A DNA stretch of 64,000 bases from Scytolyngbya sp. HA4215-MV1 (lineage in GTDB: Bacteria > Cyanobacteriota > Cyanobacteriia > Leptolyngbyales > Leptolyngbyaceae): the NCBI GenBank assembly GCA_019359045.1, contig JAHHIA010000007.1:248001-312000 (forward strand), read 5' to 3'. Under the pieces are notes generated by a model, which was given only the letters and a program-made list of their open reading frames with translations, did no database searches and was not told where the DNA came from. Below, one piece after another: positions 36,701 through 39,256 of the stretch. The position numbers and the translations under genes are program-made. The stretch's first letter is position 1. Each line of letters starts with the position of its first letter.

Positions 36701-39256
36701 TCACCACCCTACAATCACCTTCCAGTAAAGCGAACCGATTGCGAAACTTGCCCCATGCTGAGGCAGCAAAGTCCAGAAAGATTGACGCGCAATTTTTTGC
36801 GTTAAAACGATACTGCACCAAACTGAGAAAATCAGCGTCACCCCTTGCAAAAATGCCAATACTGCTGGATCGACGACGGCGATCGGCAAATTTGCCCCTC
36901 CCTGCCAGCCCAGGGTAGCAAAAGTGACGGGCAGAACTCGTCCTGCTTCAGTGAGTCCTAAGCGCAGATAGTGTGCCAGGTTGGCACCGAGCACTAAGGG
37001 TAGATATCCATATGCCAGATCAATAAACGCCCGCGGCTTGACGGCCGAAAGAGGTTGTTGCATTTTTTGGACAAGGCGAATGAGTGCATAAGTGGGTAGC
37101 GCGATCGCGATCGGAACCAACAATGCCAAGATCGCCGCCCCCGTATGGAACCCAAACTGGTCTAGATGCAGATGCCAACCAAACTGTTGCTCAATTTCGG
37201 GCAACCGATGCAGTAACACTACACCAAACAGCAAAAACAGGAGCGCTACTTCTGCACGGGTCGGTGTATGGGTCGTCCAGAGTTCAATGCCAGGAGGACG
37301 CAGGTTCAACTCCACCGATCGATGAGGACAGGCTTTGAGACAGGTCATACACAGAACACAATCTTTGTTCTCCTGTAATTGTGCTGGATGGGAATAGAGA
37401 GGACAGCCTCCCGTCTCCTGACCTTCGCCCTTTTGTGGTCCTCCCTTATAGCACTGATAGGTGGTGCAAGTGGCAGAACAAATGCCCTGTTGTGCTCGCA
37501 GCTCCGTTACAGCCAACTTGGCAAACAAACCATTCATCCCCCCGATCGGGCACAAATAGCGACACCAAAACCGCCGTTCAAACAGCAGCGAAAAAACGAT
37601 CGCGCCCGCTGTAATCAACAACAACAAACAGGCAGATAGGTAAGCGGTGTTCTCCAAATCCCAAAGTTCTTCCCACAGCAAAATGAGGGCAAACAGTCCA
37701 AACAAAAACCATCCGCCCCACTTTTCTGCCTGTTGACGGGGCCAGGGTCTCAGCTTACGCGGCAGCAGCCAGAGCGAAAGTTTCTGGGTGACTTCGCCAT
37801 AAATCATAAACGGACAGACAGCGCACCAGAGCCGCCCCACAAAGGGGAACGCAATCAGAATCAGGGGCCACCACCATGCCCAGAAAAAATTGAGGGCAAC
37901 GTTGCGATCGCGACTTTGCGGACCCCAGATCAAGACGGCAACCACTCCTGCAAAGACACTCAAGGTAAACCCGTAATTGATGCGATCGGGATACCAGGGA
38001 CTGCGTAAAAACTGCCGTAGTTTAGGATTCACATTCAGCAAATTCAACCGAAATCGCCGTAGTTTGGTACTCACTGACCAGAAAACCTCTTCCGTCAGTT
38101 CCGCTGCACCCTCTGCCTGGACCACTGCCCGCTCTATTAAACCTTCCAATTCGGTCAGATTGCCAGGAAAGTCGTAACCCTGCAACCGGCGCAATGCTTC
38201 GGGCGTTACCTTGGGCTTAGGCAACCCCCGCGATCGACAAAACAGCCCCAAATAGTACGCCACCTGCGCGGTAATGTCTGACTTTCGCACCCGCAAAGGA
38301 GGCACCTTAATCAGGTGCTTGACCCGATTCTTTTTCTCTAGATAGGGCAAGATTTTTTCCGAATTCATGACAATCCGAGCTTGGCAACGCCTGACCGCAG
38401 GCTCCGGATCTCCCTCCCGACTAATCGGGGTATAGTTGCCTGTTTCCAGCAGAACCACCAGTTTTTCTTTCAGTTCTGGCGGCAGATCTTGCACATTGTT
38501 TAACAGCAACGTACCTGTCCCCAACCATTCCAGCAAACCGGGCTTGCCCCCATCTCGCCCAAATAGCTCTGCCCCACTGACTTGTAAAGTTTCACAGTTG
38601 AGCTTGATCATTGGTTCCTGGCGGCAGCGAGAACCAAAGTGAATCAGGGCCGCAATATTGTCTTTACCCAACCCCGGTTCACCAAAAATCAAGACGGATT
38701 GATGATCCGCAGCCGCTTTTTTAATTTCCTGACGCAGTCGCACCGCATAACGACTAGAGCCAATAATGCCCCGTTTGACCTTAGGCACTAGATAGGGACG
38801 CAGTGCAATTTGTCGATCGCGCTCAAACGTGAGCTGAAAGGAAATCTGATTCAGCTCCGTTGCCAATTGGCGAGATAAGGTCTGAGAAATTTCGGGATGT
38901 GCCTGTGTAAGCACAATAAATTGCTCACGCGGGATGCTCCACAATTCCACATCAGTCAAGGTAATCACCGTCTGTTCAACGGGTTGATCGAGCAGCATTT
39001 CTTTCAGGTGAATCACCGCCCCCGGCAATAGCCCGATCGCGTTGGCAAGGCTCGTTTTTTGGGTGCGGTAGCTCTCCAACTGTCCTGATTTGAGGATATA
39101 GAGGGCTGTCGGTAAGGTATCTTCCCGCACCAGGCGACGGTTAGCTGGAATCGTTTCAACCTGGATTGCAGCCACGATCGCCTGTATCGTTTCTTCCGAC
39201 AGTGCACCCAGCGATGTCTGAGATCGCAACCACGCTATCCGCTCGACCTGATCCAT
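36701..39256 (-). CDS. Fusion of cyclic-nucleotide-binding, sigma-54-activator-like AAA+ and polyferredoxin membrane domains
   Basis: An 851-residue protein. Residues about 20-130 form a CRP-type cyclic-nucleotide-binding fold (SEETIQAIVAAIQVETIPAN, then LYILKSGQLESY). Residues about 165-400 are an NtrC-like AAA+ domain: Walker A GEPGLGKD at about 192-199, FPGNLTELEGLIERA at the end. Walker B reads GTLLLNNVQ, losing both acids, and the sigma-54 contact motif GAFTGA is replaced by GGKPGLLEW. From about 435 on there are several transmembrane segments with WCAVCPFM and WCRYLCPIGG, then a CSATCTTYQC cluster and CVLCMTCLKACP, typical of NapH/NosR-like polyferredoxins. Cyanobacteria are known to lack sigma-54, so this is probably a membrane redox sensor or electron carrier, not a classical activator. 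Confidence 0.88.
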   Translation of the reverse strand: MDQVERIAWLRSQTSLGALSEETIQAIVAAIQVETIPANRRLVREDTLPTALYILKSGQLESYRTQKTSLANAIGLLPGAVIHLKEMLLDQPVEQTVITLTDVELWSIPREQFIVLTQAHPEISQTLSRQLATELNQISFQLTFERDRQIALRPYLVPKVKRGIIGSSRYAVRLRQEIKKAAADHQSVLIFGEPGLGKDNIAALIHFGSRCRQEPMIKLNCETLQVSGAELFGRDGGKPGLLEWLGTGTLLLNNVQDLPPELKEKLVVLLETGNYTPISREGDPEPAVRRCQARIVMNSEKILPYLEKKNRVKHLIKVPPLRVRKSDITAQVAYYLGLFCRSRGLPKPKVTPEALRRLQGYDFPGNLTELEGLIERAVVQAEGAAELTEEVFWSVSTKLRRFRLNLLNVNPKLRQFLRSPWYPDRINYGFTLSVFAGVVAVLIWGPQSRDRNVALNFFWAWWWPLILIAFPFVGRLWCAVCPFMIYGEVTQKLSLWLLPRKLRPWPRQQAEKWGGWFLFGLFALILLWEELWDLENTAYLSACLLLLITAGAIVFSLLFERRFWCRYLCPIGGMNGLFAKLAVTELRAQQGICSATCTTYQCYKGGPQKGEGQETGGCPLYSHPAQLQENKDCVLCMTCLKACPHRSVELNLRPPGIELWTTHTPTRAEVALLFLLFGVVLLHRLPEIEQQFGWHLHLDQFGFHTGAAILALLVPIAIALPTYALIRLVQKMQQPLSAVKPRAFIDLAYGYLPLVLGANLAHYLRLGLTEAGRVLPVTFATLGWQGGANLPIAVVDPAVLAFLQGVTLIFSVWCSIVLTQKIARQSFWTLLPQHGASFAIGSLYWKVIVGW

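Follow-up and report, generated by a model that had tools for sequence, protein, structure and literature searches.

Among the closest described systems, VpsR of Vibrio cholerae is a soluble c-di-GMP-binding transcription factor with neither membrane nor Fe-S part, and NosR and CcoG bear what we take to be a general resemblance to the membrane part of the protein described here. A literature search for cyanobacterial polyferredoxins yielded nothing relevant. In Synechocystis, gene order identifies slr1529 as the orthologue, by way of a Synechocystis-like genome (locus L106) in which the neighbours are leuD-, pyrG-, desaturase-, pdxH-, scpA- and ffh-like genes; the assignment draws on the locus numbers of neighbouring genes. 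Another candidate, slr0593 ('cAMP binding membrane protein'), was dropped because gene order disagrees. The gene slr1529 is listed as 'ntrX', nitrogen assimilation regulatory protein (PMC4182526, PMC3516471), and its transcript level drops in high copper (ratio 0.29; PMC4182526) and under iron deprivation (PMC3516471). A strain deleted for it is viable, falls outside the four slow growers and has altered central metabolites at 72 h (PMC5318462). No biochemical study of slr1529 was found in the open literature searched.

In the 64,000-nucleotide stretch of Scytolyngbya sp. HA4215-MV1 DNA analysed here (the window), the gene is a single intact open reading frame of 851 residues on the minus strand (36701..39256), as are all of the features given below. 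The sequence-only reading had described a three-part protein joining a CRP-type domain, an NtrC-like AAA+ domain and a membrane polyferredoxin, and this is borne out by the intact frame and by Pfam matches above cut-off to cNMP_binding (residues 35-118), Sigma54_activat (PF00158, residues 164-301; 65.9 bits vs a cut-off of 20.2), AAA_lid_14 (residues 322-384) and, in the C-terminal half, Fer4_5 (PF12801; 35.2 bits vs a cut-off of 22), whose paired membrane-edge cysteines are invariant. Residues 1-150 (38807..39256) comprise the CRP-type cyclic-nucleotide-binding fold and the following helix, as indicated by cNMP_binding, a residue table and a fold match of Z 17 to cyclic-nucleotide-gated channels. 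Residues 160-395 (38072..38779) make up the NtrC-type AAA+ domain, assigned from Pfam and fold comparison, with the fold intact in prediction and the catalytic motifs lost. The remainder, residues 403-851 (36704..38050), is a NapH-like membrane polyferredoxin, assigned from Fer4_5, TIGR02163 and model m66b52766e572, with a predicted helix bundle and an Fe-S segment.

Long matches over both the AAA+ and membrane parts occurred in about 100 genomes (our own count from the match table of a search of 386 genomes sampled from the phylum), and this recurrence of the same fusion rules out an assembly artefact. The 74 loci from named genomes were nearly all cyanobacterial, and the AAA+ domain and Fer4_5 occurred together in 52/52 members scanned. 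Relatives formed three groups, comprising orthologues (group A, the window's own type, with roughly 55-80% identity), a paralogue (group B, ~40%) and picocyanobacterial sequences (group P). Groups A and B co-occur in some genomes (e.g. G076, G114 and G294) and are therefore paralogues; in a tree built from the membrane part, groups P and B sit on long, well-supported branches. Motif counts refer to 106 aligned relatives overall, with 76 sequences in group A and, for the P-loop count, ten in group P.

The motif features called from the letters, namely GEPGLGKD, LLLNN, the loss of GAFTGA and FPGNLTELEGLIERA (residues 363-377), were all confirmed in the sequence. At Walker B (residues 249-254; 38495..38512), alignments place TLLLNN, with Asn-Asn for Asp-Glu, where NtrC proteins have hhhhDE. 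Asn-Asn was found in 73 of the 76 group A sequences, and no relative of any group (106 aligned) has Glu at the second position. The segment ELFGRDGGKPG (residues 230-240; 38537..38569) occupies the site of the missing GAFTGA loop in alignments with PspF and with canonical activators (L118 and L119). Both GAFTGA and the arginine-finger segment FRxDLxxRL are missing in 106/106 aligned relatives; the controls in the alignment, canonical activators of non-photosynthetic members of the phylum, carry the motifs. Fusion and Asn-Asn are thus both common to the orthologues, and neither can be put down to chance or assembly error. The claim that Walker A survives stood for the window protein (GEPGLGKD, residues 192-199; 38660..38683), but failed for most orthologues, in which the Gly before the P-loop Lys (Gly197 here) is replaced: it is Glu, Asp or Asn in 59/76 group A sequences and Glu in 7/10 of group P, whereas the P-loop of paralogue group B is complete (GxxG(T/S)GKT). 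The P-loop lysine itself is invariant. In the sensor II region (FPGNLTEL, residues 363-370; 38147..38170), Thr replaces the Arg of the usual VREL, which the family does not conserve.

Structure prediction nevertheless returned a retained AAA+ fold despite the lost motifs (Z 24.8 to FleQ, rmsd 2.2 over 228 aligned residues). A decaying gene was ruled out by dN/dS, which showed all domains to be under purifying selection; across 19 close pairs, values for the AAA+ part were about 0.03-0.26, similar in many pairs to those of the membrane part, and the CRP-type part tended to be the least constrained. Such selection argues that the AAA+ part is, on sequence grounds, a conserved pseudo-ATPase, and the motif losses indicate that the head very probably no longer hydrolyses ATP.

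The proposal that the AAA+ domain had been reused assumed that cyanobacteria lack sigma-54. We found no Sigma54_DBD or Sigma54_CBD match in the protein's own genome, control genomes being positive, and among 242 genomes of the class there was one match above cut-off (38 residues, 23.7 bits), in a genome without the activator-interacting domain; rpoN was therefore not detected in this genome, nor credibly in the class. Together with conserved Asn-Asn, absent GAFTGA and purifying selection on the AAA+ part, this upholds reuse. No helix-turn-helix or other DNA-binding domain was found in the protein, in which the AAA+ lid reaches the first membrane helix within about 35 residues. Because the genome lacks detectable sigma-54 and the protein lacks a DNA-binding domain, its predicted features identify it as something other than a sigma-54 transcription activator, and it is unlikely to act directly as a transcription factor. 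The same evidence bears on the Synechocystis annotation, by which the protein would be a functioning nitrogen regulator, NtrX, an idea to which we give almost no credence. What speaks for it is the annotation itself (PMC4182526, PMC3516471), against which stand the lack of a helix-turn-helix, Walker B Glu, GAFTGA and rpoN, the absence of any Response_reg (receiver) match in the Pfam scan of the window protein, and a score of 96.5 bits to the NtrX equivalog model vs a cut-off of 600. The 'ntrX' label of slr1529 looks like a misannotation, and appears to have been drawn from the AAA+ domain alone, missing the polyferredoxin and the loss of catalytic motifs.

Gating by nucleotide binding had also been suggested, and here the evidence ran the other way for cyclic nucleotides. 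By alignment to CRP by eye, the equivalent of CRP E72 is Leu84 (Leu in 65/69) and that of R82 is residue 94, where Glu, Pro or Gln predominate; the corresponding pair in group B is Tyr and Gln. The domain is absent from group P, from Pseudanabaena and from one Synechocystis-like genome, and no separate upstream gene for it was found in relatives without it. With the cAMP-binding residues replaced, the domain gone from at least three lineages and the P-loop damaged in most orthologues, cyclic-nucleotide gating was not sustained, and the CRP-type domain, judged by its residues, does not look like a cAMP sensor. The core unit is the AAA+ domain plus the polyferredoxin, with the CRP-type fold presumably an accessory. 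A broader form of gating, in which the head acts as a switch and non-hydrolytic binding of ATP, ADP or a cyclic dinucleotide controls the electron carrier, would draw on the invariant P-loop lysine, on the full P-loop of group B and on the presence among the closest folds of FleQ, a c-di-GMP binder (entry title 5exx). The Gly replacements in groups A and P (59/76 and 7/10), the altered cAMP residues and the repeated loss of the CRP-type fold all count against such a switch, and we consider it unlikely, although it is compatible with an electron relay and would refine that explanation.

In the membrane part, the first membrane-edge CxxCP motif is WCAVCP (residues 477-482; 37811..37828; C478 and C481 invariant) and is paired with a CxxxCP motif at the membrane edge, WCRYLCP (residues 564-570; 37547..37567; C565 and C569 invariant). 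Residues 593-644 (37325..37480) hold eight further invariant cysteines (C593, C597, C602 and C618; C633, C636, C639 and C643), which likely bind two [4Fe-4S] clusters; the first of these motifs, CX3CX4CX15C, is non-standard, and model confidence in the Fe-S loop is low (about residues 591-635). All 12 cysteines are invariant in groups A, B and P and in a stand-alone protein from Deinococcus ficus. The nearest named family was TIGR02163 (napH_; E 3e-13), at 49.9 bits and so below its cut-off of 213, and a NosR model matched at only E 0.0087. Neither sequence nor fold revealed a solved structure resembling the membrane part, the fold search of the membrane model giving nothing with E < 0.001 and, at best, unrelated helix bundles (Z 5.7). 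No other Fer4_5 protein was found in this genome. Four histidines lying within or next to the C-terminal membrane helices (H683, H704, H762 and H834; codons near 37208, 37145, 36971 and 36755) are nearly invariant in group A, and group B shares H683 and mostly H762; haem or quinone sites are a possible meaning of these residues.

We therefore favour, with moderate confidence, a membrane Fe-S protein that faces the cytoplasm, transfers electrons and belongs broadly with NapH and other polyferredoxins, joined to an AAA+ domain derived from a sigma-54 activator. Electrons would be exchanged between the quinone pool and a partner in the cytoplasm, and the AAA+ head would either assemble the protein, as a ring or dimer, or dock that partner. 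The original wording, 'redox sensor or electron carrier', stays plausible from the sequence, with electron transfer favoured because the 12 cysteines are invariant and the paralogue sits in a sulphide/anoxia setting. A membrane-bound redox sensor, with an Fe-S part responsive to quinone or redox state and an AAA+ head that relays the signal by contacting other proteins, perhaps as far as sigma-54-independent transcription in the manner of VpsR-type proteins, would suit a head derived from a regulator, the LLLND Walker B and missing GAFTGA of VpsR in alignment, and the viable slr1529 deletion with altered central metabolites at 72 h (PMC5318462). However, no helix-turn-helix follows the AAA+ domain, the chain continuing instead to the first membrane helix, and no regulon is reported in the literature found; we judge a sensor unlikely.

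Gene context bears on the electron-transfer reading through the paralogue. Around group A genes no neighbour recurs except through local synteny, so the role of the window's own type is unreadable from context. For group B, 13/19 loci have cysK close to the gene, directly downstream in most, and several loci also carry nearby rhodanese, persulphide dioxygenase-like, ArsR, SQR, TauE, Rieske, HemN and cytochrome bd genes, the gene names in unannotated clusters being our own reading of the sequences. On two cyanobacterial plasmids (L126 and L127) the paralogue belongs to islands that also encode a Rieske protein and carry cysK and a copy of psbA (photosystem II D1), and L126 also has genes for an FAD oxidoreductase, an ArsR regulator, a rhodanese and DsrE nearby. 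On a Chlorohelix plasmid, a gene flanked by others for rhodanese, TusA, DsrE and metallo-beta-lactamase-fold proteins (L130:4434-5372) encodes a NapH-like 4Fe-4S protein with distant similarity to the membrane part. In Synechococcus PCC 7002, polysulphide raises pdo, rhod, tauE and cysK2, and the passages on this response do not mention the present protein (PMC12466478). The paralogue's context fits a sulphide or persulphide response island, and its probable place of action is under sulphide or at low oxygen.

More tentatively, the family may represent an electron-transfer complex common among cyanobacteria, built on a dead sigma-54-type AAA+ ring that would now be the platform on which a membrane Fe-S protein is assembled or switched; one copy would be specialised for life with sulphide and little oxygen. 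These results correct a regulator label in a model cyanobacterium, provide an example of a conserved AAA+ domain maintained by selection without its ATPase motifs, and point to an uncharacterised membrane electron-transfer protein in many cyanobacteria, picocyanobacteria included, for which the sulphide-island paralogue offers a concrete route to probing its role.

Set against known systems, the window protein has the AAA+ fold of the bacterial enhancer-binding proteins PspF, FleQ and NtrC1 and partly keeps their lid and sensor II region, but lacks their Walker B Glu, GAFTGA, arginine fingers and helix-turn-helix and belongs to a genome with no detected sigma-54. VpsR, the second-best PDB match, resembles it at both Walker B and the GAFTGA site. 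Separately, three genomes (G106, G321 and G325; 94-98% complete) in which neither Sigma54_DBD nor Sigma54_CBD was found encode proteins in which two sigma-54-activator AAA+ domains stand in tandem on one chain (L118:5249-7210, L119:1087-3111 and L120:5290-7590), the two that were aligned keeping GAFTGA-type loops and DE. On the membrane side, the 4Fe-4S binding protein of Deinococcus ficus (WP_027463891.1) is a stand-alone relative with 31.5% identity and all 12 cysteines but, unlike the window protein, without AAA+ and CRP-type domains. The NapH/MauN family (TIGR02163) likewise combines membrane helices, paired CxxCP/CxxxCP motifs and a cytoplasmic 4Fe-4S segment; compared with that family, the window protein has an altered first cluster motif, extra C-terminal membrane helices and an AAA+ head.
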